From Thermoplasmata archaeon (lineage in GTDB: Archaea > Thermoplasmatota > Thermoplasmata > Lutacidiplasmatales > UBA184): a stretch of DNA of 38,393 bases. The stretch covers positions 1 to 38,393 of the forward strand of contig JAKIWY010000001.1 in assembly GCA_022749835.1 (NCBI GenBank). Direction: 5' to 3'. The notes under the pieces were generated by a model. The model was not told the origin of the DNA. It searched no databases and was given only the letters and a program-made list of their open reading frames with translations. Below, in pieces: positions 3,104-37,958 of this stretch. The first letter of the stretch is position 1. Each line of letters starts with the position of its first letter. The position numbers and the translations under genes were made by a program.

Positions 3104-3117
3104 CAGCCGAGGGAGGG
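3104..3117. repeat. Distal copy of tRNA-Cys 3' end (attachment-site-like direct repeat)
   Basis: The 14 bases CAGCCGAGGGAGGG occur here and again at 3993-4006, where they span one base beyond the tRNA, the discriminator, the 3' acceptor strand and the edge of the T stem of tRNA-Cys. The two copies are in the same orientation and enclose the vapB/vapC-like pair. Identity stops abruptly on both sides. This is the geometry of attL and attR around an element integrated into a tRNA 3' end. The shortness of the repeat is the main weakness. Confidence 0.55.
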
Positions 3118-3145
3118 TCCGGCAGAAAAGTTCCGCTCCTCCGCG

Positions 3146-3598
3146 TCAGTCTGGTCGGGCGACCGCCGTTCCGAACTGAATGTCCGATGGCCGCTTCGTG
3201 GCCGTACCCGACCTTGCTCTGAGCAACTCGCGATCCTCTGTCACAACGCAATCCGCCCCCCTACACGTTGCGGTCGCCAGGATTAGGGCGTCCGGGAGCG
3301 TGAGGCCGTGGGCGCTTCGGATTTCCCCCGCGGTCAACGCGATCGCTTCATCCACCGGTTCGATGGAGTAGGCCTGGGAGGCCCGAACGTGGCTCAGGAA
3401 GGGAGTCCAGAGCGCCGGGACCTGGGCGACGGTGAACCCGCATCGGAGCTCCGCGAGGGTGATGACCGAAACCAGGCCCTGGATCCTATCCTCATCCACG
3501 GCATTGAGGAGTCGACGGCACGGGGAATGCCCCGCTTCCCCGGGGTCCCGGGCCGCAACGAAGACGTTAGTGTCGATGACGAGCTTGGCGACCCTCAC
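3146..3598 (-). CDS. vapC: PIN-domain ribonuclease toxin, VapC family
   Basis: 150 residues from GTG 3598, where a GGGAG lies five bases upstream. An in-frame ATG at 3616 would add six residues but has no ribosome binding site. The PIN fold is clear. There is an N-terminal LVIDTNVFVAA with the first acidic ligand, a mid-protein TLAELRCGF with the conserved Glu, LTLPDALILATA with the third acid, and CVVTEDRELL near the C-terminus with the fourth. VapC toxins use these to hold Mg2+ and cleave RNA, often initiator tRNA or the 23S rRNA loop. The gene overlaps the AbrB-type antitoxin upstream by about 32 bases, so the two are co-translated. The target cannot be read from sequence. The catalytic acids are intact, so the toxin is probably active. 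Confidence 0.9.
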   Translation of the reverse strand: MRVAKLVIDTNVFVAARDPGEAGHSPCRRLLNAVDEDRIQGLVSVITLAELRCGFTVAQVPALWTPFLSHVRASQAYSIEPVDEAIALTAGEIRSAHGLTLPDALILATATCRGADCVVTEDRELLRARSGTATKRPSDIQFGTAVARPD

Positions 3599-3836
3599 GG
3601 CTCTCCCATTCCGCACGAAGCCGACGTTGGAACTCCACCCCCGATTCCTTCGACGGACCCCATGTGGCGATGATGTCGGTCAACCGGGCCGGCCGCGCCT
3701 TGCGGAGTACCACTCGATCTCCGGACTCGACCTCAAAGAGAAGCCGATCGCCGGGGTGGATTCCCAACGCGTCGCGGACATCCCGCGGCACGGTGATCTG
3801 GCCCTTTTCGCTGACGGTCCCGCTGCCGCTTGCCAC
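3567..3836 (-). CDS. vapB: AbrB/SpoVT-type antitoxin partner of VapC
   Basis: 89 residues, GTG start with AAAGGAG seven bases upstream. Residues 6-50 are a swapped-hairpin AbrB/MazE DNA-binding domain: TVSEKGQITVPRDVRDALGI, then HPGDRLLFEVESGDRVVLRKA. The C-terminal half (about 51-89) contains LTDIIATWG and a charged helix. It is the likely segment that threads into the VapC active site. Its own promoter contains a 6-bp inverted repeat (3847-3864) over the ribosome binding site and expected transcription start, fitting autorepression by the VapBC complex. It is the first gene of the two-gene operon. Confidence 0.9.
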   Translation of the reverse strand: MASGSGTVSEKGQITVPRDVRDALGIHPGDRLLFEVESGDRVVLRKARPARLTDIIATWGPSKESGVEFQRRLRAEWESREGRQARHRH

Positions 3837-3846
3837 GTCGGAACTC

Positions 3847-3864
3847 CTTTACGATTAAGTAAAG
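3847..3864 (-). promoter_or_regulatory. Inverted-repeat operator of the vapBC operon
   Basis: CTTTAC-gattaa-GTAAAG is a perfect 6-bp inverted repeat with a 6-base spacer. It overlaps the AAAGGAG ribosome binding site of the antitoxin and covers the expected transcription start. AbrB-type antitoxins bind palindromes of this size, so autorepression is the natural reading. Confidence 0.55.
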
Positions 3865-3874
3865 AATACTGGCA

Positions 3875-3883
3875 CATTTAACC
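3875..3883 (-). promoter_or_regulatory. TATA box of the vapBC operon
   Basis: On the minus strand this reads GGTTAAATG, an AT-rich island in GC-rich surroundings. It is about 27 bases before a start point near 3852, which leaves a leader of about 16 bases carrying the ribosome binding site. Confidence 0.5.
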
Positions 3884-3992
3884 ATACCGCCGCGCCCCTG
3901 CGTTGAATGGGGCGGGGAGACTATCGGGGTGCGACGACGTTCGTCCGCACCGAGGGGCGATGCGGGCTAAGGGAGGACTGCGAGAGGATCGC

Positions 3993-4006
3993 CAGCCGAG
4001 GGAGGG
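3993..4006. repeat. Proximal copy of the tRNA-Cys 3'-end repeat (attL-like)
   Basis: Same 14 bases as 3104-3117. Here they are part of the intact tRNA-Cys gene plus one base beyond it, so insertion at this point would leave the tRNA functional. Confidence 0.55.
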
Positions 4007-4066
4007 AATCGAACCCCCAAGAAACAGATCTGCAGTCTGTCGCATTAACCATTCTGCCACCTCGGC
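3994..4066 (-). tRNA. tRNA-Cys (GCA anticodon)
   Basis: 73 bases on the minus strand. The acceptor stem is GCCGAGG/CCTCGGC with discriminator U, which is characteristic of tRNA-Cys. The anticodon arm is ACAGA-CTGCAGA-TCTGT with GCA at 34-36. The T arm is GGGGG-TTCGATT-CCCTC with one G-U pair. CCA is not encoded and there is no intron. The gene lies 41 bases downstream of the PHP gene but has its own TATA box. The vapBC pair starts about 160 bases beyond its 3' end. Confidence 0.96.
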
Positions 4067-4091
4067 GCGGGGGTCCCTGACGCGAGGGTGG

Positions 4092-4098
4092 CTTAAAG
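4092..4098 (-). promoter_or_regulatory. TATA box of tRNA-Cys
   Basis: CTTTAAG on the minus strand, centred 29 bases before the mature 5' end of the tRNA. This suggests transcription starts at or very near the first tRNA base. Confidence 0.6.
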
Positions 4099-4107
4099 GC
4101 GTCCGCC

Positions 4108-4788
4108 CTATATCGGACGGAACCCGCGGGTGGCCCTCAACAGTCCCGTTCGTACCCCCAATCGCACCCTGTCGAACCCCGTGAGCGAACGACCTGCCGG
4201 CTGAGCACGTCCGCTTCTCAGCTCCCGCAACAGATCGTCGACGTCCGCCACCTCCGGGCTCACCTCCGTGTAGGCTCGCCCGACCCCCATCGCGTGGTGG
4301 GCATCGCTTCCCCCGGTGGCGGAGAGGCCCCGGCGGGTGGCGAGGAGGTGGGCCCGCGCGTTCGCGAGCTCTGAGTTGTGGCCGTTGATCCCTTCGATGC
4401 CGTCGACCCGCGCCAGGTCGGCGATGCGCCGGCCCACCCCGTGGCTCCATCGGAACGGGTGGGCGAGAACGGCCACGGCCGCTCGCTCCTTCACCCAATC
4501 GAGCGTGTCGGAAAGGGGCCGGTGGGGCGGGGGTGGCTCCGAGACGCCGTAGACTAGGAGGTGTCCTTCGACCGTCGAGACCTCGACGCCCGGCACCAAG
4601 AGAAGGCGTGGGTACTCCCGGGCGAGCTCCCGCAGCCGGCCATGACCGGCCGTGGTGTTGTGGTCCGTGAGGGCGAATCCATTGAGCCCGACGATGCCGA
4701 GGCGCTCGATCACCGTCTCTACCCGAAGGCCTGAGTCCGGAGAGTTCACGCAGTGCACGTGCAGGTCGAGCCGCAGCGTCGGGGTCAT
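4108..4788 (-). CDS. PHP-domain phosphoesterase
   Basis: 226 residues. Metal-binding PHP motifs appear in order: LHVH (His10, His12), LTDHNTT (Asp42, His43), VPGVEVST (Glu), LAHPFRW (His) and GGSDAHH (Asp-x-His) near the C-terminus. Such proteins hydrolyse phosphate mono- or diesters with a di- or trinuclear metal centre. Stand-alone archaeal members are mostly uncharacterised, and nucleotide or oligonucleotide substrates are typical for relatives. The start codon overlaps the metG stop (ATGA), so it is translationally coupled to methionyl-tRNA synthetase. That could suggest a housekeeping role around tRNA or nucleotide metabolism, but this is inference only. All expected ligands look present. 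Confidence 0.88.
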   Translation of the reverse strand: MTPTLRLDLHVHCVNSPDSGLRVETVIERLGIVGLNGFALTDHNTTAGHGRLRELAREYPRLLLVPGVEVSTVEGHLLVYGVSEPPPPHRPLSDTLDWVKERAAVAVLAHPFRWSHGVGRRIADLARVDGIEGINGHNSELANARAHLLATRRGLSATGGSDAHHAMGVGRAYTEVSPEVADVDDLLRELRSGRAQPAGRSLTGFDRVRLGVRTGLLRATRGFRPI

Positions 4789-7070
4789 CGGACCTTGGAT
4801 CCGGGGGCGAGCTCGGGGTCCGGAAGGATCGGTCCGCGTTCGGCGAATTGAAGCACGCTTCCCGTCGACGCCTCTGCGGCGACGAGCCGGACCACTACGA
4901 GGGTACCTAGCGGAACCAAGGTGGGCACGGTGACTTCGCGGCCTCCGACGTCCAACCGACAGCCGCCCCCCTCCGAGGGGCCGACCGACCGTCCGACCAG
5001 CATCGGGGTGCGTTCGAACTCCTCGTAGCGGATCACCCGGGGGGATCCGCTCGTCCCCTCGATACCCGATCCGGGACTCGCGGTGGCCGGCGACGTGAGG
5101 AGTCGGGCGCGGGTTCCGTCATCCGCCGCGAGCAGCATTCCGTGTGACGTGACCTTGCGGATCGTCCTCGGCTCGAGGTTCGCCAACAGGGCGACCCGCC
5201 GACCCCGGAGCTGCTCGGGGGAGTAGAACGGCCGGATCCCTGCGACCACGGTGCGAGGTTCCGCCTCCCCCACGTCCAGCCGGATGACGTAGAGTCGGTC
5301 GGCGGAAGGGTGGTTTTCGACCTCCAGGATGACCGCGGAGCGGATGTCGAACTCCGCTGGCGTCTTGGTGGTAGCCGTGGGCGACGGCGAGGAGGGCGGG
5401 GCCTTGGGCGCGCTGGCCGCCGGGGGAGCCGCGGTCCTTGCTTCCCTTCGCAGGAAGAGGGGGCGGATCTCCCCGAGCTCCTGGGCCGGAGGGACCGGCT
5501 CCTTCGCCTGCTCCCAATCTCCGGGGCTCGGTGGCTGGGCGTAGCCGAGCATCCGGAACAGCTCAGCGGAGGAGAACGGGATCACCGGCGAGAGCCAGAT
5601 CGCGGCGGCCTTGAGGGTCCAGAGGCTCTCGAAGAGGATGCGCCGGCGATCGTCGTCGCTCGCCGACCAGGGCTTGGCGTCATGGAAGCGTCGGTTCGCT
5701 TCCCGGACCTCGCCGAGAGCGAGCTCGAGCGCCTCCTTCAGGTGGACCCGCTCGTACTCCGCGGTGATCTTCTCGTGCGACGCCTTGAGCCGCTCGACGA
5801 ACGCCGCATGCGACGCCCCCGCGTCGCCGGGTGGCTCCGGGACCCGGTTGGCGCAGCGGTCCCTCGTGAGCACGAGGACCCGCTGGGCTAGGTTGCCGTA
5901 CTGGTTCGACAGGATGTCGTCGGTGACCTGGTGGAACTCCTCCCATCGGAAGTCGGTGTCGTGGTTCTGCGGGGCGAGGAGCGCCGCGTAGAAACGGATC
6001 AGGTCCGGGGGGTAGTGCGCGAGCAGCGCCGGCATGAACAGATCCTCGTCGACCGTCCGGGACTTCGAGATCTTCCGCCCATCGACTTGCATCCACTCGT
6101 TCGCGGCGACGTCGTACGGCAGCTTCAGCCCGCCGCGGCCGATCAGGATCGCCGGCCAGGTGACCGTGTGAAAGAAGATGTTGTCCTTCCCCAGGAAGTA
6201 GTAGGAGCGGACCGGTTCCCTCTCGAGCCAGTAGCGCTCGTAGGCGTCCGGCCGGCCCGCCCGGATCGCCCACTCCTTGGAGGCGGAGAGGTAACCGATG
6301 ACCGCCTCGAACCAGACGTAGAATCGCTTCGAGGAATACCCTTCGAGCGGGATGGGGATCCCCCAGTCGAGGTCGCGGGTGATTGGGGTCGCCTTCAGGC
6401 CTTCTCGCAGGAAATTCTCGACGACCCCCGTGACGTTGGAGCGCCAGTAGCTCTTGTCCGCAAGGTACTCCCGGATCTTCGGCTCGAGCTTGTCGAGCAG
6501 CAGGTAGAAGTGCTCCGTCGGACGGAACTCGGCCGGGGTTCCGCAGAGGCTGCACCGGGGCTCCTTGAGCTGGGACGACTCGAACTGGCGGCCACAGTGG
6601 TCGCACTCGTCCCCGCGCGCCGCCGGGTCGGCGCAGAACGGGCAGGTGCCGACCAGGTAGCGGTCCGGGAGGAAGCGCTCGTGCTTCGGGCAATACGGGT
6701 TCTCGCTCGTCCGCCGGCCGACGAAGCCGTTCTCGAGGAGCGTTAGGAACAGCTCCTGGACCGTCCGCTCGTGGACGAGGGTGTGGGTGCTGGTGAACGT
6801 GTCGAAGCTCACCCCGAGGCGTACGAAGGCATCGCGGTTGATCGCGTCGTTGCGCCGCGCGATGGTCTCGGCGCTCGCCCCCTCCTTCTCGGCGGCGACC
6901 AGTATCGGGGTGCCGTGCATGTCGGAGCCCGACACCATGAGGACCTCGTCGCCGCGCAGCCGGTGGAAGCGGGCGAACGAGTCTCCGGGAAGGTAGGAGC
7001 CGGCGAGGTGGCCGATGTGGAATGGGCCGTTGGCGTACGGCCAGGCTACCCCGACGAAGATCCGCGCCAT
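4785..7070 (-). CDS. metG: Methionyl-tRNA synthetase with C-terminal tRNA-binding domain
   Basis: 761 residues. Class I synthetase that charges tRNA-Met with methionine. The HIGH motif is HIGH at residues 18-21. The KMSKS motif is KISKS in DGRKISKSRTV. The zinc knuckles in the connective peptide are visible as CPKH...CPFC and CDHCG...CSLCG, so two zinc sites are likely. After a Pro/Ala linker (about 545-580) comes a Trbp111/EMAP-like tRNA-binding OB domain (FDIRSAVILEVENHPSADRLYVIRL...GMLLAADDG). Many archaea encode this domain as a separate protein. Its last strand (LPDPELAPGSKVR, residues 749-761) is separated from the rest by about 89 extra residues, described under findings. On the minus strand an A-rich CAAAAAGGTA lies about 40 bases upstream of the ATG as a candidate TATA element. 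Confidence 0.97.
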   Translation of the reverse strand: MARIFVGVAWPYANGPFHIGHLAGSYLPGDSFARFHRLRGDEVLMVSGSDMHGTPILVAAEKEGASAETIARRNDAINRDAFVRLGVSFDTFTSTHTLVHERTVQELFLTLLENGFVGRRTSENPYCPKHERFLPDRYLVGTCPFCADPAARGDECDHCGRQFESSQLKEPRCSLCGTPAEFRPTEHFYLLLDKLEPKIREYLADKSYWRSNVTGVVENFLREGLKATPITRDLDWGIPIPLEGYSSKRFYVWFEAVIGYLSASKEWAIRAGRPDAYERYWLEREPVRSYYFLGKDNIFFHTVTWPAILIGRGGLKLPYDVAANEWMQVDGRKISKSRTVDEDLFMPALLAHYPPDLIRFYAALLAPQNHDTDFRWEEFHQVTDDILSNQYGNLAQRVLVLTRDRCANRVPEPPGDAGASHAAFVERLKASHEKITAEYERVHLKEALELALGEVREANRRFHDAKPWSASDDDRRRILFESLWTLKAAAIWLSPVIPFSSAELFRMLGYAQPPSPGDWEQAKEPVPPAQELGEIRPLFLRREARTAAPPAASAPKAPPSSPSPTATTKTPAEFDIRSAVILEVENHPSADRLYVIRLDVGEAEPRTVVAGIRPFYSPEQLRGRRVALLANLEPRTIRKVTSHGMLLAADDGTRARLLTSPATASPGSGIEGTSGSPRVIRYEEFERTPMLVGRSVGPSEGGGCRLDVGGREVTVPTLVPLGTLVVVRLVAAEASTGSVLQFAERGPILPDPELAPGSKVR

Positions 7071-7202
7071 CGACGTACCGACCCGGCAATCTAGCCGGCG
7101 TAGCTCCTTACCTTTTTGCCGGGCGGGCCCGGAGGACCGGGCCCATCCTCTTTATTCCCGGGGCGGCTCGCCCGCCGCATGGATTCAGGGGAGGCGTCCC
7201 GG

Positions 7203-8108
7203 ATGGTCCGTCCGTCGGTCCCGGCGGCGGACGCACTCATCGGGGTCAAACGGCCCGTCCTGGGCCACGGCTACGTGGTGCTCGTCGATTACATGGGCAA
7301 TGACGCGGCGATCGTCCAGGCGGCCCGGGTCTCCTACGGCGTCGGCACGAAGAACGTCCGGGACGACCGCGGTCTCGTCCGCTACCTCCTGAGGCACCGC
7401 CACACGACGCCCTTCGAAATGGTCGAGTTCAAGTTCCTCGTCCGGCTCCCGATCTACGTCGCCCGCCAGATGGTGCGCCACCGCTCGGCGTCGATTAACG
7501 AGTACAGCGCGCGCTACTCGGTGATACCCGACGAGTTCGACCTGCCTTTGCCCGAAGACATCCGCCGGCAGTCGACGAAGAACCGTCAGGGCCGCGGCGA
7601 TGCGCTCCCGGACGCGGTCCGGGAGAAGTTCCGCTCTGACCTCGACCGGCTGTCGCGCGAGGCGTATGCGGCCTATGAGCAGGCTCTTGCGGCGGGCGTT
7701 GCTCGGGAGACGGCGCGCCTCCTGCTCCCTCTCGCCTACTACACCGAGTGGTACTGGAAGATCGACCTCCACAACCTTCTCCATTTCCTCTCCTTGCGCC
7801 TGGACGCCCACGCCCAGGAGGAGATCCGTCGCTACGCGGTGGAAATCGCCGCGATCGCCCGGACGCTCTGCCCGGTCGCGGTCGAGGCGTTCGAGGAGTT
7901 CCAGCTCGACTCGGTCTCCCTGAGCCGTCGGGAGCGGGCCGCGATCCGCTCGCTGTTGGAGGGAGCCTCGCCCGAGGCGGCGTGCGTGCGGGCGGGCCTT
8001 CCCCTCACCCGACCCGACGGGAAGCCGATGACGAGCGGGGAAGGGGTGGAGTTCCTCGAGAAGCTAGAGCGGATCCGGGAGACCGACGTCTCCTTCGTGA
8101 CGGAGTGA
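7203..8108 (+). CDS. thyX: Flavin-dependent thymidylate synthase
   Basis: 301 residues from ATG 7203, chosen because GGGGAGG precedes it by about eight bases. An in-frame ATG at 7179 lies about 25-28 bases after TTTATTC (7151-7157) and could be a leaderless start. ThyX makes dTMP from dUMP using methylene-tetrahydrofolate (or an archaeal equivalent) and FAD with NADPH. The signature RHR-x7-S is present (RHRSASINEYS), as are VDYMGNDAAIVQAARVSYG at the N-terminus and LLPLAYYTEWYWKIDLHNLLHFL, whose RxxLP/NL segment binds dUMP. The C-terminal 60 residues (SLSRRERAAIRSLLEG...) form a helical extension. No thyA is seen nearby. The gene is divergent from metG. Confidence 0.96.
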   Translation: MVRPSVPAADALIGVKRPVLGHGYVVLVDYMGNDAAIVQAARVSYGVGTKNVRDDRGLVRYLLRHRHTTPFEMVEFKFLVRLPIYVARQMVRHRSASINEYSARYSVIPDEFDLPLPEDIRRQSTKNRQGRGDALPDAVREKFRSDLDRLSREAYAAYEQALAAGVARETARLLLPLAYYTEWYWKIDLHNLLHFLSLRLDAHAQEEIRRYAVEIAAIARTLCPVAVEAFEEFQLDSVSLSRRERAAIRSLLEGASPEAACVRAGLPLTRPDGKPMTSGEGVEFLEKLERIRETDVSFVTE

Positions 8109-8411
8109 ACCCACCCACCCAGTCCTCTACATCATCCGGGTGCCGGGAAGGGTGCCCGGCTCGTCGGACCCAAGATTCGTCGCGACGTACCGACGCCCGG
8201 GAAGGGGGACGTATTGGGCGCTCCCGCGCGGCACGTAGTGTCGTATAACTCTACGAATGTCGTATAACTCGTCTCGTTTTGAATCGTGCGATGAGCGCTT
8301 ATCGCTGAGAGCGCGGGATCGGGCGAAAATCAGCGACGTTGCCAACCTTGGCACGCGTGCCGGATTTGACCGGGCTGGCCCGCGTCGGGGCCCGCGAGCT
8401 GAGGGGATGGG
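8109..8411. other. Intergenic region between convergent genes, with TCGTA repeats
   Basis: 303 bases between the stops of thyX and a surface-protein gene. No reading frame with coding character was found. It holds a GCCGGG/CCCGGC hairpin shortly after the thyX stop, a tandem direct repeat at 8239-8270, and a GCGCT/AGCGC stem at about 8295-8314. The repeat contains TATA-like GTATAAC, so a small RNA promoter is possible but unproven. Confidence 0.5.
8239..8270. repeat. Two direct copies of TGTCGTATAACTC, 19 bp apart, with TCGTA/TACGA half-sites
   Basis: TGTCGTATAACTC is exact at 8239-8251 and 8258-8270. Within it TCGTA (8241-8245), TACGA (8252-8256) and TCGTA (8260-8264) alternate in orientation, forming two overlapping inverted repeats. 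TCGTA also occurs twice, in TATCGTA, at 9589-9595 and 9602-9608, just upstream of the neighbouring surface-protein gene. Confidence 0.6.
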
Positions 8412-9584
8412 TTACGGTACGACGGTAGAGCCCGCTCCGGTGGAGTAGGGTGCGCCGAGTGGTGGACCGCCCATGCACCCATAGTACGTCGGGACGAGCA
8501 GTGCGGGGCCCCCGTAGCAGTTGCCGTACCCCCCGGTGAGCCAAGCCTGCGCGCTCGAGAGGGTCCCATTTACTGCGTTCAAACTGGCGCTGAACATGGC
8601 GTTCGAGCTGCAAGCTCCCGGGGAGAACGGCGAGCAACTCGTGTAGATGACGTCCCACGCGCTTGGGCTGGTGTAGGAAGTGTTGTTGAGGGGAAACGGG
8701 ACAGGAGGGGCACAGGGAGACACCACAGTCGAGTTGGTGCCATTGCAACCGCTCCCATTGTAGTGCCACGGATAGCTCGAGTTGTACGAGACGCTGGTCG
8801 TGACCGACCCGCTCACCATCAATTCGCGGACCTGAACGCTCGCATTGGCCAGGAAGGCGCTCCCACCCCAGGAGTTCGCGATATTGACGGCGGTCGGGGA
8901 GTCGACCTTGACGGCATCGAGGCCCCCAAAGGTCGTCGTGACCTTCACGAAGCTGGAGGGGTAGCTGCCCGTCGAGCAGGCGGCGGAGAGTTCGGCGTAC
9001 GCGGTGGCGATCCCCCCGATGACCGTCACGATCAGCGTGTCGCCGGCGGGGTCGGAGAAAGAGATTGCCCAGAACGGCGAGAGTCCCGCGCCGAGCGAGG
9101 CGGGGCTGGCCGGGACGAGGACGTTCGTGAACGGCGAGTGGGACGGGGAGCTCCAGGTGCAGTTCGAGCCACTGAGCGCACCGTAGGTGTTGTTGGGGGC
9201 GGGCAGCGACAGACTTGCCGCGGTGACCAGCCCCATGGCGTTCACCGCCGTCCACGAGCCGCCGAGCTGGGAGCTGACCTGCGATTCGGCGGCCGCGAGG
9301 GCCGACGAGAACGACACGGCGGTCCCGGTTCCAGCGCCACGGCCAGAGTTTCCCGACAACCAGTGGCTCCATGGAGCGCCGGTGGCAAACCCGAGTCCCA
9401 CGAACGAAAGGGCCAGCAGGACGGCTCCCGCACCCACTAGGACCGCGCGCCTCCCGCGGGGTCGGGGGAACAGGGGGCTCGAGCCAACAGTGGAGGACGC
9501 AGGGAACGGGTGGGTGAGATAGTTGGGGGAACCGCCGGAAGGGACGGACGGGGCAGGGGCGGGCGATACCTCGCTAGCGACCAT
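8412..9584 (-). CDS. Membrane-anchored secreted protein of unknown function
   Basis: 390 residues. A Pro/Ser-rich cytoplasmic N-terminus of about 45 residues is followed by RGRR and one membrane helix (about 46-69: AVLVGAGAVLLALSFVGLGF). The remaining 320 residues should be outside. The exterior part is rich in Ser, Thr, Asn and Gly with many N-x-S/T sequons (NNTY, NSSY, NGTNST, NNTSYT), and has about eleven cysteines that could form disulphides. It contains no recognisable enzymatic motif. The first 60 exterior residues (SFSSALAAAESQVSSQLGGSWTAV) look like a helical segment after the anchor. It is probably a cell-surface glycoprotein. Upstream are two TATCGTA repeats, one of which may overlap the TATA region. 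Confidence 0.75.
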   Translation of the reverse strand: MVASEVSPAPAPSVPSGGSPNYLTHPFPASSTVGSSPLFPRPRGRRAVLVGAGAVLLALSFVGLGFATGAPWSHWLSGNSGRGAGTGTAVSFSSALAAAESQVSSQLGGSWTAVNAMGLVTAASLSLPAPNNTYGALSGSNCTWSSPSHSPFTNVLVPASPASLGAGLSPFWAISFSDPAGDTLIVTVIGGIATAYAELSAACSTGSYPSSFVKVTTTFGGLDAVKVDSPTAVNIANSWGGSAFLANASVQVRELMVSGSVTTSVSYNSSYPWHYNGSGCNGTNSTVVSPCAPPVPFPLNNTSYTSPSAWDVIYTSCSPFSPGACSSNAMFSASLNAVNGTLSSAQAWLTGGYGNCYGGPALLVPTYYGCMGGPPLGAPYSTGAGSTVVP

Positions 9585-9588
9585 CGAT

Positions 9589-9608
9589 TATCGTAGCCCA
9601 CTATCGTA
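9589..9608. promoter_or_regulatory. TATCGTA direct repeat in the promoter of the surface-protein gene
   Basis: TATCGTA at 9589-9595 and again at 9602-9608, 13 bases apart. On the coding strand this reads AATACGATAG...TACGATAA just before the ATG. It may combine the TATA element with a regulator site. The TCGTA core is the same as in 8241-8264. Confidence 0.4.
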
Positions 9609-9673
9609 TTTCATCTCCATGCGGGACGGGTACGGGCATCTCGGGATCGGGAGCCCGCACGGACCGGCTCCGT

Positions 9674-10894: not shown

Positions 10895-11812
10895 TCAGTA
10901 CTCAGGCTTTGCGCGCTGGTACGCCGCCTTGAGCGCGGTCGTGTCGACGTGCGTGTAGATCTGGGTCGTCGCGACCGAGGCGTGCCCGAGGAGCTTCTGG
11001 ATGTATCGTATGTCGCAGCCGCGGCTCAAGAGTGCGGTCGCCAGGGTGTGCCTAAGCATGTGGGGCGTGACCCTGCGGGGGATCTCGGCAATGCGCGCCG
11101 CCCGTCGGACGATCCGCTCCACGGTCACCGGCCCGACCGGGATGAGGCGGCTGTTCCCCTCGCCGGAGAGTGCCCGCTCGGTGAGGTAGCGGTCGATGGC
11201 GGCGCGCGTGCGGTCCTCGAGGACGACCTCGCGGTCCTTGTCGCCTTTGCCGGATCGGACGTGCAGGATGTTCCTCTCGAACTCCACGTCCTCGAGGGCG
11301 AGGTGGCAGAGCTCGCCGACCCTCAGACCGCAGAACGCGAGGATGTGCAAGATCGCGCTGTCCCTCGAGGAGTCCTTCACCGCATCGAACAAACGGTGCG
11401 TCTCCTCCTCGGAGAGGTAGTGCGGGAGCCGCTCGGGGCGGCGCGGCGCCTCGAGACCGTCGGCGACGCTGAAGCCGAAGCTGCGGAACAGGCACGCGAG
11501 CCCCCGGACGGTCGTGTAGAGCGAGTTCTTGCTGTACTTGCGCTCGAGGACGAGGTATTCGCGGTACCGTTCGAGGTCCTTGAGCGTCACCTCATCGAGG
11601 GGCTTTCCGACGAACCCGAGGAACGTCCGCGCGATGTGCGTGTACTGCTTGACGGTGCACGGGCTGCGCTCCTGGGCCCTCAACAGGCGAGAGAACCGGT
11701 CCACGAGTTCGGGGCCACCGAACGACGGCACTCCCTCCTCGACCGGAGGCGCCGAGAAGGCGTGCCGGCGCCCGGAGGTCGGGCGCTCACGCCCGACTAT
11801 AGCGGAGGCCAT
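10895..11812 (-). CDS. xerA: Tyrosine recombinase XerA/XerC-like
   Basis: 305 residues. An N-terminal SAM-like core-binding domain (about 35-120) precedes the catalytic domain, with all expected residues: Arg164 in CGLRVGEL, Lys189 in VRSGKGDKD, His251-x-x-Arg254 in HMLRHTLAT, His277 in LLGHASV, and nucleophile Tyr286 in TTQIYTHVD. Archaeal XerA resolves chromosome dimers at a dif site. Length and domain order match the chromosomal protein better than SSV-type integrases. It is divergent from ncsA. On the minus strand CCTTTATTAGG lies about 31 bases upstream as TATA box. Whether it could act in trans on the tRNA-flanked elements in this window is unknown. Confidence 0.92.
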   Translation of the reverse strand: MASAIVGRERPTSGRRHAFSAPPVEEGVPSFGGPELVDRFSRLLRAQERSPCTVKQYTHIARTFLGFVGKPLDEVTLKDLERYREYLVLERKYSKNSLYTTVRGLACLFRSFGFSVADGLEAPRRPERLPHYLSEEETHRLFDAVKDSSRDSAILHILAFCGLRVGELCHLALEDVEFERNILHVRSGKGDKDREVVLEDRTRAAIDRYLTERALSGEGNSRLIPVGPVTVERIVRRAARIAEIPRRVTPHMLRHTLATALLSRGCDIRYIQKLLGHASVATTQIYTHVDTTALKAAYQRAKPEY

Positions 11813-32189: not shown

Positions 32190-33163
32190 GCCCAACGAAA
32201 AAGGCGGCGCCCCGGGGCTCGGCAAAGCCGGCCCCCAAGGCGATCGCGGGCCTCCCCCTCGGCAAGACGGGCGGCCGCCATCCGGCGATCGGGCTCGGCC
32301 TCTGGGCGCAGGGCCGATGGAACCCCGAGTTCGAGGCCCGGACGAAGGCGACCGTGGCGCACGCGATCGAACGGGGCGTCGAATGGTTCGACACCGCGGA
32401 AGTCTACGGGGGCGGACGCTCGGAGCGCCTTCTCGGCGATCTGCTCGACCGTCGCGGCCGGGACGCTCCTCCGCTGTTCGTCACGACGAAGCTCTCCTGG
32501 GAGCACCTTCGCCCCGCGCAGATCCGCTCGTCGCTCCAAGGCAGCCTGCAGAGGCTCGGGCGTCCGAGCGTCGACGTCTACCTCGTCCACGCCCCCGACC
32601 CCCACGTCCCCATCGCCGCGACGATGGGCGCCCTCGAGACGCTCTGGAAGGAGGGGAAGTTCCGGGCGATCGGCGTCAGCAATTTCTCCCTCGAGCAGCT
32701 CGAGGCGGCGGTGGGGGCGCTCGGCGATGCGCCGCTCGTGGTGAACCAGGTGCTCTACAACCTGCTCGACCGGGAGGACGGGGACCCGCTCGTCGACTAC
32801 TGCCGGAAGCACTCGATCGTCCTGGAGGCGTACACGCCGCTGGGCCGGGGCCTGCTCGCGGGCAGGTTCCTCACCAAGGAGAAGCCGTCGGTCGAGGTGC
32901 TTCGCTACGCGCATCGCCTCGCGGAGACCGACCGCTTCCCGGTCCTCCTGGAGCGCGCGCGAGCCCTCAACGCGCTCGCTAAGGCGGAGGGCGTCCCGCT
33001 CGCCTCCCTCGCGTTGCACTGGCTCGCCGGTCGCGGGTGTGCGCCGCTGTTCGGCGCGAGCCGCCCGGAGCAGGTCGACGGCCTCCTCAAGGCGTGGAGC
33101 CAGCGCCCGAGCGACGCGCTCCTTCACCGGGCCGAGGGGATCGCGCAGGGCAACGATGCTTAG
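32186..33163 (+). CDS. Aldo/keto reductase
   Basis: 325 residues, GTG start overlapping the valS stop (GTGA). A (beta/alpha)8 NADPH-dependent reductase. The catalytic tetrad is complete: Asp69 and Tyr74 in WFDTAEVYGGG, Lys102 in TTKLSW, His135 in YLVHAPDP. VSNFSLEQLEAA and VVNQVLYNLLDRE are conserved cofactor-side segments. The sequence is closest in style to the small-molecule or potassium-channel beta-subunit-like branch (Tas/YajO type). The first 20 residues (SPTKKAAPRGSAKPAPK) are a basic, probably disordered extension. Substrate unknown, and the position behind valS looks incidental. Confidence 0.93.
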   Translation: MSPTKKAAPRGSAKPAPKAIAGLPLGKTGGRHPAIGLGLWAQGRWNPEFEARTKATVAHAIERGVEWFDTAEVYGGGRSERLLGDLLDRRGRDAPPLFVTTKLSWEHLRPAQIRSSLQGSLQRLGRPSVDVYLVHAPDPHVPIAATMGALETLWKEGKFRAIGVSNFSLEQLEAAVGALGDAPLVVNQVLYNLLDREDGDPLVDYCRKHSIVLEAYTPLGRGLLAGRFLTKEKPSVEVLRYAHRLAETDRFPVLLERARALNALAKAEGVPLASLALHWLAGRGCAPLFGASRPEQVDGLLKAWSQRPSDALLHRAEGIAQGNDA

Positions 33164-33857
33164 GCTCGTCGCCTTCGACATGGACGGCACGCTGGTCGAC
33201 GCCGACAGCTCCTGGCGATGGGTGCACGATCACTTCGGGGACTCGAACCCCGAGGCGCTGCGCTTGTTCCTGGACGACCGGATCGACGACGCCGAGTTCA
33301 TCCGGCGGGACATCGCGATCTGGTGGAAGCACCGGCCCGGGCTCCGGCTCGCCGAGGTCGAGGAGATCCTCTCGGGCGTGCCGCTCATGCCCGGGGCCCA
33401 CGAGATGGTGGCGTCGGTCAGGGAGCGCGGGGTCACCACGCTGATCGTGAGCGGGGGGATCGACCTGCTCGCCGACCGCATCGCCCGGCAGCTGGGGATC
33501 GACTACGTGCTCGCCAACGGATTTCGCGTCGACCCGGAGGGCCGGCTCACCGGGGAGGGGATCATCCGGGTCCCGATCAAGTCGAAGGAAGGGGTCGTCG
33601 AGAGGGTCCAGGCGCAGCTCGACGTGCGGCCCGAGGAGACGGCGAGCGTCGGCAATTCGGACATCGACGTCGGAATGTTCCGCCGCAGCGGGATCGGGAT
33701 CGCCTTCCAGCCCGCGGACGAGCACGTCCGAAAGCACGCGAGCGCCGTGGTCGAGGAGCGCGACCTCCGGGGGATCGTCCGGCACCTGTTCCCCGCCGGC
33801 GAAGCGCCCGGCGCTCACGGTCAACCTTTTGTGGGGTTCCCGGCTCCCAACCGGTAG
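33156..33857 (+). CDS. HAD-family phosphoserine-phosphatase-like hydrolase
   Basis: 233 residues from ATG 33156, overlapping the aldo/keto reductase by eight bases. Motif I is AFDMDGTLVDADSSW (Asp8 nucleophile, Asp10). Motif II is LIVSGGIDLLADRIA. The Lys of motif III is probably in VPIKSKEGVV, and motif IV is VGNSDIDVGMF. A helical cap sits between 20 and 80 (WVHDHFGDSNPEALRLFL...). The pattern fits SerB-like enzymes, so phosphoserine is a fair guess and other small phosphomonoesters are possible. The last 15 residues (HGQPFVGFPAPNR) lie over the promoter of the next gene. Confidence 0.88.
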   Translation: MLRLVAFDMDGTLVDADSSWRWVHDHFGDSNPEALRLFLDDRIDDAEFIRRDIAIWWKHRPGLRLAEVEEILSGVPLMPGAHEMVASVRERGVTTLIVSGGIDLLADRIARQLGIDYVLANGFRVDPEGRLTGEGIIRVPIKSKEGVVERVQAQLDVRPEETASVGNSDIDVGMFRRSGIGIAFQPADEHVRKHASAVVEERDLRGIVRHLFPAGEAPGAHGQPFVGFPAPNR

Positions 33858-34474
33858 TGGAAGAGTACCGCGCCCTCCTCGAACGCGCCCGGGAGAAGCT
33901 GCCGGAGGTCCGTCCGGCGACCGAGCGCTTCCAGGTCCCCGAACCGGACATCATGGGGGACGGCAAGAACACGGTCATCCGCAACTTCCAGGAGATCACC
34001 ACGGTGCTCCGACGCGAGCCGGCCCACCTGATCGGCTACCTCGCGAGGGAGATGGGCTGCCCGGGGGTCCTCGACCTGCCCCGCGGCGTGCTCAAGTCCC
34101 GGCTCTCCAAGGATGCGATCCAGCAGCGGATACGTGAGTACACCGAGAAGAACGTCATCTGCTCCGAGTGCAAGCGACCGGACACCCACCTGAGCAAGGA
34201 GGGCCGGCTGACGCTGCTCATCTGCGAGGCGTGCGGTGCCCAGCGACCGGTGACCGTCCGTCGGGTCGTCGAGCCCGAGAAGCCCAAGACGCCGGTCGTC
34301 GTCGGCGAGATCTACCGCCTCACGATAGAAGACGTCGGTCGCCGAGGGGACGGCGTCGCCAAGAAGGAAGGGTTCGTCATCTTCGTCACCGGGGCGACGA
34401 CCCGGGGGACGACCATCAACGCCAAGATCACCAAGGTCCTCGGCAACAACGCCTACGCAATCGTGCAGCCGTAG
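33857..34474 (+). CDS. Initiation factor aIF2-beta fused to a TRAM domain
   Basis: 205 residues from GTG 33857, one base inside the stop of the preceding gene. Residues 1-137 are aIF2-beta: helical start EEYRALLERAREKLPE, the alpha-beta core KNTVIRNFQEITTVLRREPAHLIGYLAREMG, and the C-terminal zinc ribbon CSEC (102, 105) and CEAC (123, 126). aIF2-beta is part of the heterotrimer that brings initiator tRNA to the ribosome. Residues about 147-203 (VVVGEIYRLTIEDVGRRGDGVAKKEGFVIFV...GTTINAKITKVLGNNAYAIV) form a TRAM domain, an RNA-binding beta barrel, joined by a Pro-rich linker. CAACCTTTTG (33822-33831) is a weak TATA candidate about 30 bases upstream, so the transcript may be leaderless. Confidence 0.93.
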   Translation: MEEYRALLERAREKLPEVRPATERFQVPEPDIMGDGKNTVIRNFQEITTVLRREPAHLIGYLAREMGCPGVLDLPRGVLKSRLSKDAIQQRIREYTEKNVICSECKRPDTHLSKEGRLTLLICEACGAQRPVTVRRVVEPEKPKTPVVVGEIYRLTIEDVGRRGDGVAKKEGFVIFVTGATTRGTTINAKITKVLGNNAYAIVQP

Positions 34475-34483
34475 GCGCGCTCC

Positions 34484-35452
34484 ATGCGCGGGCTCCGGTC
34501 GCTCGGGCTGCTCGCCCTGTTCGTCGGGGCCCAGCTGGTCGCGCTCCTGCTCGCTCTCCCCTTCAAGAGCGCCGGACTCGCCTCCACCTCCAACCCGAAC
34601 AACCCGACCGACCCCTTGTTCCTCATCCTCATCATCATCCTCGCACCGCTCGTCATCTTGCTGCTCGCCCGCCGGGCCGGCTCGATGCGCGCGCTGCGCT
34701 GGCTCATCCTCCTGGGGATCGGCGGCTCGCTGACGATCACCCTCGGCGCCGCGATCGGACTCGTCACCCCGCCCCCGATCATCCTGTCCCCGGTCGGCCC
34801 CGGCCTGTTCGTCGACCTATCGGTGCCGTTCGCCACCGCGATCGCGGTCGGGCTGTTCCTGGCGCTCCTCATCGAGCCGCAATGGTACGTCGTCGATGCG
34901 GCCGGGTTCGTCGCCGCGGGATCGCTCATCGCGCTGCTCGGCATCTCCTTCGGCATCCTGCCCGTCTTCATCCTTCTGATCGCGCTCGCCGTCTACGACG
35001 CGGTCGCGGTCTACGGGACCAAACACATGATCTCGCTCGCCGACGTGGTGACCGACATGAAGCTACCCATCCTCATGGTGATGCCCGGGAGCGCCGACTT
35101 CGACTACACCCGCAAGGGGACGTTCACCGAGCAGCGGGCCGCCCCGGTCGCCGAGCGCGAAGCGATGTTCATGGGCCTGGGCGACGTGGTGTTCCCCGGG
35201 ATCCTGGTCGTCTCCTCGTTCGTCTGGCTGCCGACCTCCCACGGCGTCGGGGGGATCGGGGGAAACCTGCTCGTCGCCTTCGGCTCGCTCCTGGGCGCTC
35301 TCCTCGGCTTCAGTGCGCTCATGCGGCTGGTGGGAGGCGGGAACCCGCAGGCCGGACTCCCGCTGCTGAACGGCGGGGTGATCGGCGGGTACATCGTGAG
35401 CTTCCTCATCGTCTATCACAGTCTCGGGCTCGGCCTCACGGTCAGTCTATGA
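34484..35452 (+). CDS. Presenilin/signal-peptide-peptidase-like intramembrane aspartyl protease
   Basis: 322 residues, about nine membrane helices, the family A22 layout. The catalytic aspartates are Asp172 in AVYDAVAVYGTKHM (the YD motif) and Asp234 in MGLGDVVFPGIL (the GxGD motif). The PxL-type motif is in GLPLLNGGVIGG near residue 298. Such archaeal homologues (MCMJR1-like) cleave substrate helices within the membrane. Natural substrates in archaea are unknown. The large loop between the two catalytic helices (ADFDYTRKGTFTEQRAAPVAEREAMF) is cytoplasmic. It starts nine bases after the aIF2-beta stop and is probably co-transcribed. Confidence 0.94.
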   Translation: MRGLRSLGLLALFVGAQLVALLLALPFKSAGLASTSNPNNPTDPLFLILIIILAPLVILLLARRAGSMRALRWLILLGIGGSLTITLGAAIGLVTPPPIILSPVGPGLFVDLSVPFATAIAVGLFLALLIEPQWYVVDAAGFVAAGSLIALLGISFGILPVFILLIALAVYDAVAVYGTKHMISLADVVTDMKLPILMVMPGSADFDYTRKGTFTEQRAAPVAEREAMFMGLGDVVFPGILVVSSFVWLPTSHGVGGIGGNLLVAFGSLLGALLGFSALMRLVGGGNPQAGLPLLNGGVIGGYIVSFLIVYHSLGLGLTVSL

Positions 35453-35472
35453 GCCGGGAGTGGTAAGGAGCG

Positions 35473-36414
35473 ATGCCGCGCAAGGTCGAGGACTTCGAGG
35501 TCGGGGACGCGCCGGGGCTGGACGAGCTCACCCGCCGGATGGAGGCGGGAGGAGGGTTCAGCTCGCGCGGCGTCGCGCGGGGGGTGGACCTGCTCGCCCG
35601 GATGTTCCGGGACGAGGGGATGACCGTCTTCCTCTCGTTCCCCGCCGACATCGTCGCGACCGGCACCCGGGGCGTCCTCGCCGAACTCGTCCGGGGCGGC
35701 TACGTGGACGCCGTCATCACGACGTGCGGCACGCTCGACCACGACCTCGCCCGCTCCTTCAAGCCGTACTACCACGGGGAGTGGGAGCTCGACGACGCGA
35801 AGCTCCACGCGAAGGGCCTCTACCGGCTCGGGAACCTCGTCATTCCGCAGGCGCACTACGGCGGGGTCATCGAGCGGGAGATGCAACGCCTGCTCGGGCG
35901 GCTCTACCGGAAGGGGACGCGATCGATCTCCACGCGCGAGCTCGTCTGGGCGATCGGGGAAGCCCTCGGGGAAAAACGCGGGCGCGGCAGCATCTGTCGG
36001 GCAGCGTTCGAGCGGAAGATACCGGTCATCGTCCCCGGCATCACCGACGGAGCGGTCGGCTCGCAACTCTGGCTGTTTTGGCAGCAGCACAAGGCGCTCT
36101 CCCTCGACCTCTTCTCCGACGAGCAGACGCTGTGCGACGTGGTCTTCGAAGCGAAGCGCGCGGGTGCGATCATGCTCGGCGGAGGCATCTCGAAACACCA
36201 CACGATCTGGTGGAACCAGTTCCGCGACGGGCTCGACACCGCTCTTTACATCACGAGCGCCGTCGAGTGGGACGGCAGCCTCTCGGGAGCGAGGACGCGC
36301 GAGGCGATCTCCTGGGGGAAGCTCAAGCCGAAGGCCCGCCACACGACCGTCGACGGCGACGTGACGGTGCTGTTCCCGTGGATGGTCGGAGCCGCGCTCG
36401 AGCGGATTCGCTGA
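35473..36414 (+). CDS. dys: Deoxyhypusine synthase
   Basis: 313 residues, near the archaeal norm. It transfers the aminobutyl part of spermidine to a lysine of aIF5A, the first step of hypusine formation. The active-site Lys241 lies in LGGGISKHHTIWWNQFRDG, with ITSAVEWDGSLSGARTREAISWGKL after it. NAD-binding segments include VFLSFPADIVATGTRGVL, VITTCGTLDHDLARS and VPGITDGAVGSQLW. AAGGAG lies eight bases before the ATG. It follows the presenilin-like gene by 20 bases, so initiation (aIF2-beta) and elongation factor modification are on one operon. Confidence 0.96.
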   Translation: MPRKVEDFEVGDAPGLDELTRRMEAGGGFSSRGVARGVDLLARMFRDEGMTVFLSFPADIVATGTRGVLAELVRGGYVDAVITTCGTLDHDLARSFKPYYHGEWELDDAKLHAKGLYRLGNLVIPQAHYGGVIEREMQRLLGRLYRKGTRSISTRELVWAIGEALGEKRGRGSICRAAFERKIPVIVPGITDGAVGSQLWLFWQQHKALSLDLFSDEQTLCDVVFEAKRAGAIMLGGGISKHHTIWWNQFRDGLDTALYITSAVEWDGSLSGARTREAISWGKLKPKARHTTVDGDVTVLFPWMVGAALERIR

Positions 36415-36450
36415 CGGTTGTGGCCCAGCACCGGAGCGCCTCCCGACGCC

Positions 36451-36457
36451 TTAATAG
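36451..36457 (+). promoter_or_regulatory. TATA box of tRNA-Lys
   Basis: TTAATAG, centred about 35 bases before the mature tRNA 5' end. This implies a leader of several bases removed by RNase P. Confidence 0.5.
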
Positions 36458-36488
36458 GGCGAGACCAAGTCGGCCCGCCCCGTCACGT

Positions 36489-36561
36489 GGGCCCGTAGCT
36501 CAGTCGGTAGAGCAGGCGGCTCTTAACCGCAAGGTCAGGGGTTCGAATCCCCTCGGGCCCG
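36489..36561 (+). tRNA. tRNA-Lys (CUU anticodon)
   Basis: 73 bases. The acceptor stem is GGGCCCG/CGGGCCC with discriminator G. The D arm is GCTC...GAGC. The anticodon loop CTCTTAA gives CTT at 34-36. The T arm is AGGGG-TTCGAAT-CCCCT. No CCA is encoded and there is no intron. The first pair of the anticodon stem is a G-A mismatch. The 3' end doubles as the left boundary of the HEPN/MNT element. Confidence 0.96.
36539..36561. repeat. Proximal copy of the tRNA-Lys 3'-end repeat (attL-like)
   Basis: The last 23 bases of the tRNA (T arm, 3' acceptor strand, discriminator) are repeated with 21 identities at 37753-37775 in the same orientation. This copy keeps the tRNA whole. Confidence 0.6.
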
Positions 36562-36651
36562 TCGATTCCGCGGTGCGGTTGGGGAGGTGGCCCCGGTGGC
36601 GCCGCGGTTCCCCTGTCGAACGCACCAGGCGGTGGGTCCATCCGAGATGTC

Positions 36652-37056
36652 CTACTCGATTTGGTCTCGAATCCATCGAACTACTCGCTCCGCTTGAACG
36701 ACGAGCCGATCCGCTTGGCTCTCGGACAGTCCCTGGCCCCCGTACTCTACGAGATTCTTTGAGGACAAGATCACTCTCACTTGTCGGACCAGCCCAGCGT
36801 CAGTGGTTCCGGGGATCCTTCCGATCAGCGAGAGGACATCTCGGTGGTCCTCCCCATGAGATCGGAGTTCCAGTTTGGCAATGGTAAGGGCGTCGCACGC
36901 AGAAATCGCCGCGTGAATGCCCTCCAACCCAGCGCTGTTCGGTCGATGGTCGTCCAGCGCGACTCTGGCCGACGTGGCGAACTCTTGCGCCTTGCGAAGG
37001 AAGCTCCCGAACTCTCGTCTCGGGACCGCGACGGTCCGGGGCGGCGAGCGCGTCAA
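36652..37056 (-). CDS. HEPN-domain protein, likely toxin of a HEPN/MNT pair
   Basis: 134 residues, all helical, starting within the stop codon of the MNT gene (ATGA). The segments EFGSFLRKAQEFATSARVALDDHRPNSAGLEGIHAAISACDALTIAKL and QADRLVVQAERVVRWIRDQIE fit the four-helix HEPN bundle. In toxins of this type an R-x4-6-H pair cleaves RNA. Here the equivalent place reads RVILSSKNLVEYGG, with Lys-Asn and a Tyr but no His. The toxin is therefore either a variant family with different chemistry or one that lacks ribonuclease activity. The start (MTRSPPRTVAV) may be a few residues long. Confidence 0.82.
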   Translation of the reverse strand: MTRSPPRTVAVPRREFGSFLRKAQEFATSARVALDDHRPNSAGLEGIHAAISACDALTIAKLELRSHGEDHRDVLSLIGRIPGTTDAGLVRQVRVILSSKNLVEYGGQGLSESQADRLVVQAERVVRWIRDQIE

Positions 37057-37646
37057 TCCCGTGCCTTCACGACCTTCCCCTCGCGTTCCACTGTATCGAG
37101 AAAGCTGGGAGAGAGTTGCCCCTGGCCCTCATCGAGGGCGATGACGAGAGGGGCGAGAGTCAGCCCGAATTTCTCCCGGATCCTGCCCGCCAGCGGGTCC
37201 AGCGCGTCCCAGACCTGCTCGATGAGGCGGGCGGACTCCACCTCCACCAGAAGGTCGACGTCGCTCCACCCGGTCTCATCACCCCGTGCAACCGAGCCGA
37301 ACAGAATGGCTCTCTGGGCCGGAAGCCCAACAAGGGCTTTCCGGAGGTCGGACTCCAACTCCACGGCAAGTCCGCGCTCGATGCCGAAAAGCGTCCTGAG
37401 GACTGGGACGAAGACGTTGTTCGGCGCAATGGACCAGGTGTGGTTTCTCCCGGCGACGTGCCGATCGACGACCCCCTGACTCTCCAGTCGCCCCAAGGAA
37501 CTCTGTACGTGCGACAGGGCCAGCCGACCGGAGTCGCGGAGCTCGAGCGCGGAGTAGGCCCGACCCGGGTGGCCGCAGAGCACGCGCAGAACGTGAAGGG
37601 TCCCCCTTCCTCGGAGAATATCGTCCAATGGCAGGTGAACCCTCAT
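37053..37646 (-). CDS. MNT-type nucleotidyltransferase antitoxin with N-terminal winged helix
   Basis: 197 residues from ATG 37646, preceded one codon earlier by a TTG. The N-terminal winged helix (about 12-75: LHVLRVLCGHPGRAYSALELRDSGRLALSHVQSSLGRLESQGVVDRH) should bind DNA. The C-terminal minimal nucleotidyltransferase shows the G-S-x10-D-x-D motif intact (Gly117, Ser118, Asp129, Asp131 in FGSVARGDETGWSDVDLL). MNT antitoxins are known to silence HEPN partners by adding AMP to a tyrosine near the active site. The fused DNA-binding domain and palindromes over its own start suggest that it also represses the operon. It heads the two-gene operon. Confidence 0.9.
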   Translation of the reverse strand: MRVHLPLDDILRGRGTLHVLRVLCGHPGRAYSALELRDSGRLALSHVQSSLGRLESQGVVDRHVAGRNHTWSIAPNNVFVPVLRTLFGIERGLAVELESDLRKALVGLPAQRAILFGSVARGDETGWSDVDLLVEVESARLIEQVWDALDPLAGRIREKFGLTLAPLVIALDEGQGQLSPSFLDTVEREGKVVKARD

Positions 37647-37647
37647 C

Positions 37648-37676
37648 AACCTTTAAACAGGTTATAGGACCTATAA
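37648..37676 (-). promoter_or_regulatory. Promoter and two operator palindromes of the MNT/HEPN operon
   Basis: AACCT-TTAAAC-AGGTT (37648-37663) is an inverted repeat directly at the start codon. TTATAGG-A-CCTATAA (37662-37676) is a perfect 7-bp palindrome around one base. The minus strand of the latter contains the TATA box (CTTTATAGG, 37670-37678), about 28 bases before ATG 37646, so the transcript should be leaderless or nearly so. Repressor bound to either site would block transcription. Confidence 0.65.
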
Positions 37677-37958
37677 AGAGGTTCACGCTTCCGGCCGCCC
37701 ACCCATCGGAGACTTGCGTCCCCGGACGAGCCCCCGAGGACCGGGACCAAATGGGTACGAGTCCCCTCGGGCCCGGGACGCGCTCCGTTGCGCCGGAACT
37801 TCGCGGTCGCGCCGGCGGATTCACGCGCTCTCCGACCGGGAGAACGTTGTAGGAATCGTCTAATCCCGCGGCGGCCTAACCGTCTCGGGTCGACCTTGCC
37901 GCCCCACCCGGCCCGCCCCTCGTGCCCGCCTGTCGAGCCGCCGGTTTCGGGCCGCCCG
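37677..37958. other. Intergenic region with the distal tRNA-Lys repeat
   Basis: About 280 bases between the MNT promoter and the next gene. The only structure recognised is the repeat at 37753-37775. The rest is GC-rich without a convincing reading frame on either strand. Confidence 0.5.
37753..37775. repeat. Distal copy of tRNA-Lys 3' end (attR-like)
   Basis: Twenty-one of 23 bases equal the end of tRNA-Lys, including the 14 bases TCCCCTCGGGCCCG without a break. The two differences fall in the T loop, where TTCGAAT has become TACGAGT. This would not support a working tRNA, and the 5' part of a tRNA is absent. Both copies point the same way, 1,214 bases apart, with the HEPN/MNT operon between. 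Confidence 0.6.

Follow-up and report, generated by a model that had tools for sequence, protein, structure and literature searches.

Toxin-antitoxin cassettes bounded by tRNA 3'-end repeats in a genus of Thermoplasmata archaea

Introduction

Tandem elements that are bounded by attachment (att) sites and carry no integrase have been described as cis-mobilizable elements (CIMEs). These are decayed bacterial integrative and conjugative or integrative and mobilizable elements (ICEs or IMEs), in general much larger than the islands considered here, which are flanked by att copies, lack integrase and transfer genes, lie in tandem at one target gene and are moved by the integrase of another element (PMC5704250). 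The additive genomic islands of the bacterial Methylophilaceae likewise consist of tandem segments, with metabolic and resistance cargo, split by copies of the last ~20 bp of a single tRNA gene, tRNA-Lys (PMC10872708). The present analysis concerns two toxin-antitoxin (TA) islands, vapBC behind tRNA-Cys and an MNT/HEPN pair behind tRNA-Lys, in a 38,393-bp stretch of a Thermoplasmata archaeon (contig JAKIWY010000001.1, positions 1 to 38,393; assembly GCA_022749835.1), hereafter the window. Both probably (probability roughly 0.75) belong to a genus-wide class of non-autonomous, site-specific integrative cassettes that carry mostly TA pairs and would be mobilised in trans.

Relative to CIMEs and additive islands, the novelty lies in size, TA cargo and archaeal host, tandem att-bounded elements without an integrase being already known: the unit is a minimal cassette of ~1 kb with fixed ends, and single cassettes, mostly of TA genes, stand behind many tRNAs. 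TA cassettes are also common in chromosomal integrons, which resemble the islands in their small cassettes, tyrosine recombinase, arrays and TA cargo; integrons dock at attI and have the attC fold, whereas the present cassettes dock at the tRNA gene, have tRNA-like ends and mixed orientation, and are not adjoined by an integrase. Integrons using attC sites exist in archaea (PMC9668308). Tycheposons, as cited in PMC10872708, also combine tRNA genes with a tyrosine recombinase, but they measure 4-200 kb and carry the recombinase at their border; identity with them was rejected because the TA cassettes measure 0.6-2.5 kb (mostly 0.6-1.4 kb) and contain no recombinase. The cryptic integrated elements of Thaumarchaeota are archaeal, have att repeats and are integrated by tyrosine recombinases, and most TA cassettes fall well below their size range (2.6-98 kb, median 17 kb; PMC6563490). 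An account of Sulfolobus islandicus describes tRNA genes as favoured targets and a variable region rich in TA genes; the passages covered mention no TA cassettes of this kind (PMC3718332). Searches of the open-licence literature turned up no account of arrays of TA cassettes behind tRNA genes in archaea, which is weak evidence of absence.

Results and discussion

Discrete units behind intact tRNA genes

Two tRNA genes, Cys and Lys, were found within the window by ARAGORN. As the initial annotation had pointed out, each is followed by a TA pair and then by a copy of its own 3' end (Table 1), and the orientations that it gave hold as well: vapBC is transcribed in the same direction as tRNA-Cys and away from it, MNT/HEPN toward tRNA-Lys. 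The genomes used for comparison are assemblies, mostly metagenomic and partly fragmented; the window's own assembly is 82% complete and comprises 311 contigs, and open reading frames (ORFs) were called in this GC-rich DNA with a simple codon model. Judged by deoxyhypusine synthase, the nearest named relatives are Thermoplasmata assemblies such as AcS5-116, AcS4-93 and SubAcS10-22, which are listed under Ca. Lutacidiplasmatales, archaea of acidic soils (Sheridan et al., PMC9287336); going by these names, the window would fall within that order or close to it.

The Cys cassette of 1,035 bp shared by congeners G013 and G007 is 96.4% identical between them over 993 bp counted from the tRNA, whereas the DNA upstream of tRNA-Cys cannot be aligned and core DNA upstream of tRNA-Lys, in which deoxyhypusine synthase lies, is only 73% identical. 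In G007 the right end lies on a separate contig, identity to G013 ceases at the last base of the repeat, and the right end was probably displaced by inserted sequence. The G007 assembly is split near this end (L094/L254 on C137 near +993, L301 on C64 near 1535), with an IS110-like transposase gene near one side.

A RelBE cassette found in G030 (third in its array), G011 and L404 has the same first base, whether the tRNA or a repeat precedes it, and ends with the repeat. Empty sites were found for both tRNAs. At tRNA-Lys, the flank beyond the G032 repeat stands directly behind the tRNA in G006, and the flank past the second repeat of L404, which has two TA cassettes, stands directly behind the tRNA in G016; at tRNA-Cys, the flank that follows the G013 cassette is directly behind the tRNA in G019 (1.2 kb compared, 76% protein identity). 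The cassettes are flanked at the target gene by attL and attR copies in the form of tRNA 3'-end repeats, and by gene content no TA cassette contains integrase or transfer genes. The transfer, same-end and empty-site comparisons are the strongest evidence for a discrete mobile unit: exact ends, empty sites and movement between species show insertion directly behind an intact tRNA, with a copy of its end at the far side.

Arrays of 2-4 TA modules, with up to three repeats, stand at tRNA-Lys and tRNA-Cys. In G030 (tRNA-Lys), G024 (tRNA-Cys) and L404, tandem segments are split by the last ~20 bp of the tRNA gene, as in additive islands. Deoxyhypusine synthase lies just upstream of tRNA-Lys in nearly every congener examined, and the downstream side varies (Table 1).

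It is unlikely that such loci are in general what is left of viruses or plasmids that integrated at a tRNA gene and lost all but the addiction genes between attL and attR, one of two readings offered in the initial annotation. Integrase genes at the same tRNA-Lys in three congeners (G007, G033 and G022), a broken one in L372, and the decayed repeats and solitary antitoxins of G010 are what such decay would leave; yet a unit of 0.7-1 kb recurs with the same two ends across species and array positions, the 1,035-bp unit was recently transferred as such, and parallel deletions to one size are improbable. Considerably less probable still is homologous recombination after DNA uptake, with the tRNA gene and the repeat serving as short homology and without a dedicated recombinase. 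The 73-bp tRNA-Cys is indeed identical in G013 and G007, and no member of the integrase family described below was detected in the window's genome, but homology would be limited to this tRNA and a repeat of ~18 bp between unalignable upstream flanks, and neither the origin of the first copies nor insertion into a one-copy empty site would be explained.

Table 1. Features of the two islands in the window, TA pairs behind other tRNA genes of the same genome, and gene content at tRNA sites of congeners. G, L and C numbers denote genomes, loci and contigs.
Feature	Position	Strand	Support or content
tRNA-Cys(gca), integration target	3994..4066	(-)	ARAGORN, Rfam tRNA model; 3' end is left boundary of Cys cassette
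Cys cassette body (vapBC island)	3118..3993	(-)	GC 0.646; between tRNA-Cys and its repeat
VapB-type antitoxin, AbrB/MazE fold DNA-binding protein	3567..3836	(-)	PF04014 6e-12
VapC-type toxin, PIN domain	3146..3616	(-)	PF01850 1e-16
Inverted repeat CTTTAC-TTAATC-GTAAAG, candidate operator just upstream of vapB	3847..3864		Sequence
tRNA-Cys 3'-end copy, right end (att) of Cys cassette	3104..3117	(-)	14/14 identical
tRNA-Lys(ctt), integration target, genus-wide hotspot	36488-36563 by ARAGORN; 36489..36561 as delimited here	(+)	ARAGORN, Rfam tRNA model
Lys cassette body (MNT/HEPN island)	36562..37752	(+)	GC 0.636
HEPN-domain protein, presumed toxin	36652..37056	(-)	PF05168 5e-4, slightly below Pfam cut-off
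MNT nucleotidyltransferase (NTP_transf_2), presumed antitoxin and repressor	37053..37649	(-)	PF01909 5e-7, over cut-off
Palindrome TATAGGTCCTATA upstream of MNT gene, candidate operator over promoter	37663..37675		Sequence
tRNA-Lys 3'-end copy, right end (att) of Lys cassette	37753..37775	(+)	21/23 identical
TA pair behind tRNA-Leu(cag), own genome (L360)	98-3379 region, contig C308		13-base tRNA-end copy at +613
TA pair behind tRNA-Arg(tcg), own genome (L361)	contig C89
TA pair behind tRNA-Leu(caa), own genome (L358)	contig C59
G025 tRNA-Lys			VapBC, repeat at +789, second VapBC of another type
G030 tRNA-Lys array			VapBC and GNAT, repeat; MNT/HepT, repeat; RelBE/ParE-like, repeat
G011 tRNA-Lys			RelBE, slightly decayed repeat
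L404 tRNA-Lys			RelBE, repeat; further gene with AbrB/PIN-like genes, repeat
L393 tRNA-Lys			VapBC, repeat
L403 tRNA-Lys			Pair like G019 nucleotidyltransferase/HTH module, repeat
G032 and G015 tRNA-Lys			Methyltransferase-like gene, repeat
G007, G033 and G022 tRNA-Lys			Tyrosine integrase gene directly behind tRNA
L372 tRNA-Lys			Broken integrase gene
G010			Decayed repeats and solitary antitoxins
G013 and G007 tRNA-Cys			Zinc-ribbon MNT and HEPN-like protein
G024 tRNA-Cys array			VapBC, RelBE-like pair (no Pfam match, assigned by context), MNT/HepT, each closed by repeat; then fourth TA-like pair

Sequences at the cassette ends

The repeat copies match the tRNA best on the acceptor side and often diverge upstream, where non-tRNA motifs common to groups of cassettes are found: a ACCCTTAGC type at Cys and Thr, and a CGAACTT type in three G024 cassettes and, loosely, at the Cys end of the window. 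The latter repeat is short when taken alone (13 of its 14 bases fall inside the tRNA), yet the 20 bases that precede it resemble the ends of the three tandem TA cassettes at G024 tRNA-Cys. The one-sided match and the shared non-tRNA motifs favour a hybrid att site over duplication of the target site by an element of transposon or casposon type with a preference for tRNA ends. Casposon target duplications are of the same size as the core identity (14-18 bp), but an origin of this kind is very improbable, the cassettes holding cargo genes only and no transposase. Identity with casposons (Cas1, terminal inverted repeats and target duplication) was rejected on the same gene content.

Repeats of the tRNA-Lys end were on the sense strand, except for one hairpin-like antisense match adjoining a tRNA. 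Related TA families occur behind different tRNAs (MNT/HepT at Cys and Lys, AbrB-PIN at Cys and Thr), so that cassettes seem to shift tRNA specificity over time. Perfect inverted repeats were present at some ends, such as GGGACTCGAA-10-TTCGAGTCCC in G015. An attC-like inverted-repeat structure as the general cassette end was rejected, such repeats being present at 4 of 29 ends, and identity with integrons was rejected on this count and on the absence of an integrase adjoining the G030 and G024 arrays.

Within the first 30 bases after tRNA-Lys, L043 (G003) and L058 (G015) have a decayed second sequence resembling a T-arm and acceptor strand, e.g. TTCGAATCCCGGCGGGGCCG, possibly the scar of a past insertion and loss.

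Genus-wide distribution of tRNA-end repeats and TA pairs

Each tRNA gene was examined for copies of its final 22 bases in the 4 kb that follow it, a strong copy having a score of at least 14, and the expectation was derived by pairing tRNA ends with the downstream regions of other tRNAs. Strong own-end copies stood behind 9 of 108 tRNA genes in four near-complete congeners, against 0.19 expected, in a scan of the kind that the initial annotation had proposed; no strong copy was antisense. Behind the repeat-bearing tRNAs, the cargo was VapBC at Glu, Lys and Arg, RelBE-like pairs at Thr and Gln, a CDGSH and cupin-like pair at Arg, and small ORFs without TA similarity at Gln and Ala; for two tRNAs with a more distant repeat, it was larger genes.

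In the window's own genome, five of 15 tRNAs (Cys, Lys, Leu(cag), Arg(tcg) and Leu(caa)) have a TA pair directly behind them. Across five genomes, seven of 14 PIN genes lay at most 1.6 kb downstream of a tRNA, a zone that by calculation makes up ~2% of the sequence. Matches to a library of TA proteins, a comparison biased by the library stemming partly from these loci, were found in nine of 99 near regions and in three of 93 regions 2.5-4 kb away. TA pairs account for about 20 of 32 repeat-bounded cassettes, the loci being partly selected, and non-TA small cargo for roughly a third or more. The islands are not special to tRNA-Cys and tRNA-Lys; what was noticed in the window is confirmed and holds well outside it. 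That two unrelated TA types share one architecture was an understatement: VapBC with several types of antitoxin, MNT/HEPN, RelBE/ParE-like pairs and a nucleotidyltransferase/HTH pair all do.

VapC and HEPN toxins often target tRNA, and by itself a GC-rich match of 14 bp in a 1-kb stretch would be unremarkable, but an explanation by chance or function, with TA pairs near tRNA genes because toxins act on tRNA and coincidental repeats, is hardly credible in view of the genome-wide excess over mismatched tRNA/downstream pairs, the strict sense-strand bias, the empty sites that contradict it and the non-TA cassettes whose ends are the same.

Large adenylate-cyclase-like genes (start ...LAAIMFTD...) also recur downstream of tRNAs, sometimes between tRNA-end repeats, and may be a further cargo family (L228; L237, G065 tRNA-Thr; L304, G084 tRNA-Thr; L303, G006; L050, G021; L389).

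Genes and composition of the window islands

The PIN toxin gene of the Cys island adjoins that of a DNA-binding antitoxin, and on these domain matches the pair is assigned to VapBC. In the Lys island, the HEPN protein has a single Rx5H, whose place is not clearly canonical for the Rx4-6H motif, and relatives from other cassettes are HepT-like and over the cut-off. A DNA-binding domain had been claimed for both antitoxins; it is well supported for the AbrB/MazE protein (PF04014) at Cys, whereas the MNT protein gave a weak match to a MarR-like winged helix at its N-terminus (MarR_2 0.07). Palindromes are present at both antitoxin genes as had been described, albeit just upstream of the starts and not over them.

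GC content is lower in the islands (0.646 and 0.636 for Cys and Lys) than in the whole window (0.686), and the GC content at third codon positions (GC3) is 0.69-0.78 in the TA genes against 0.83-0.92 in five other window genes, values that fit acquired DNA. Downstream of its own tRNA, the Lys end scored 17 and the Cys end 13. Among ~95 regions behind other tRNAs, trimmed to 1.3 kb for Lys and 1.0 kb for Cys, the best scores were 13 and 11; among ~85 such regions of the full 4 kb they were 13 (Lys) and 12 (Cys). No near copy of the Lys cassette of the window was found in 78 congeners.

A candidate recombinase and proposed mode of mobilisation

A protein family of ~440 aa has conserved tyrosine-recombinase residues (R157, K200, R285, H312 and Y321; the catalytic roles are our own assignment). 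It has no Pfam match and a moderate PHROG integrase match (2e-6). Its AlphaFold model (mean pLDDT 81.5, pTM 0.60) matched archaeal XerA with the best E-value, integron integrase, which also ranked high, Cre and lambda integrase. Members were found in 25 of the 61 congeners and, across the class, in 87 of 300 genomes, and ARAGORN found a tRNA, of many kinds and usually right beside the integrase gene, at 18 of 30 integrase loci. The integrases stand beside the same tRNA kinds as the cassettes. No relatives were found in phage records and viral contigs.

A cassette would consist of a TA operon and the promoter region that belongs to it, with an att site at the right end; the final 13-20 bases of this site repeat the 3' end (T-arm and acceptor strand) of one particular tRNA gene. 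The att site of the circular cassette would recombine with the matching tRNA 3' end, leaving the tRNA intact and a copy at the far end. Insertion would restore the site at the tRNA, which would stay open to further cassettes, and cassettes would therefore stack into tandem arrays, observed with as many as three repeats and four TA modules. The recombinase would most probably be a tyrosine integrase acting in trans, of the family found behind congener tRNA genes; mobilisation in trans, by such elements or by others since lost, appears the most economical reading. On the standard view of TA function, post-segregational or related effects protect TA genes from loss; the pair probably makes loss of the cassette costly, and TA cassettes would thereby persist and accumulate.

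The second reading of the initial annotation, a class of very small, integrase-free, tRNA-anchored elements moved by an integrase in trans, is thus borne out in its first part by empty sites, exact ends, interspecies transfer and arrays, and is plausible in its second. Several observations weigh against this account of the cassettes: the integrase family was undetected in the window's own genome, 82% complete, and in TA-rich G030; no right-end repeat (attR) of the integrase-bearing elements was detectable in stretches up to ~20 kb, so that no match could be drawn between their att sites and the cassette ends; no repeat was detectable behind the TA pairs at G025 tRNA-Thr and at tRNA-Leu(caa) of the own genome; and no matched empty site was found among congener comparisons for the two loci of the window.

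A wider, integron-like interpretation is tentative, at somewhat less than even odds: tRNA genes would be docking sites at which a family of tRNA-3'-end tyrosine integrases, common across Thermoplasmata, captures two-gene TA cassettes in trans and stacks them. With the same reserve, an addiction pair that is selfish and carries an att end of its own may then be the smallest mobile unit, and would rank with the smallest integrative elements known.

The cassettes show, across a genus, TA modules that move as units in their own right, their ends defined and backed by empty sites and a recent transfer. This bears on the question of whether a TA pair in a chromosome is a passenger, a stabiliser or a selfish element. 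For an uncharacterised family of archaeal integrases the cassettes also constitute a natural set of att substrates, and they advise caution with short genes behind the tRNAs of these genomes, as these are mobile.

Other recombinase-like genes

A Xer-like tyrosine recombinase gene lies at 10895-11812 of the window. As the sole Phage_integrase (PF00589) match of the whole assembly, and far from both tRNAs, it was set aside as probably chromosomal XerA. In G029 (L049), positions 2006-4075 downstream of tRNA-Lys contain a serine-recombinase-like frame of 689 aa together with small ORFs, and similar small ORFs are also found behind tRNA-Met of the window's own genome (L353).

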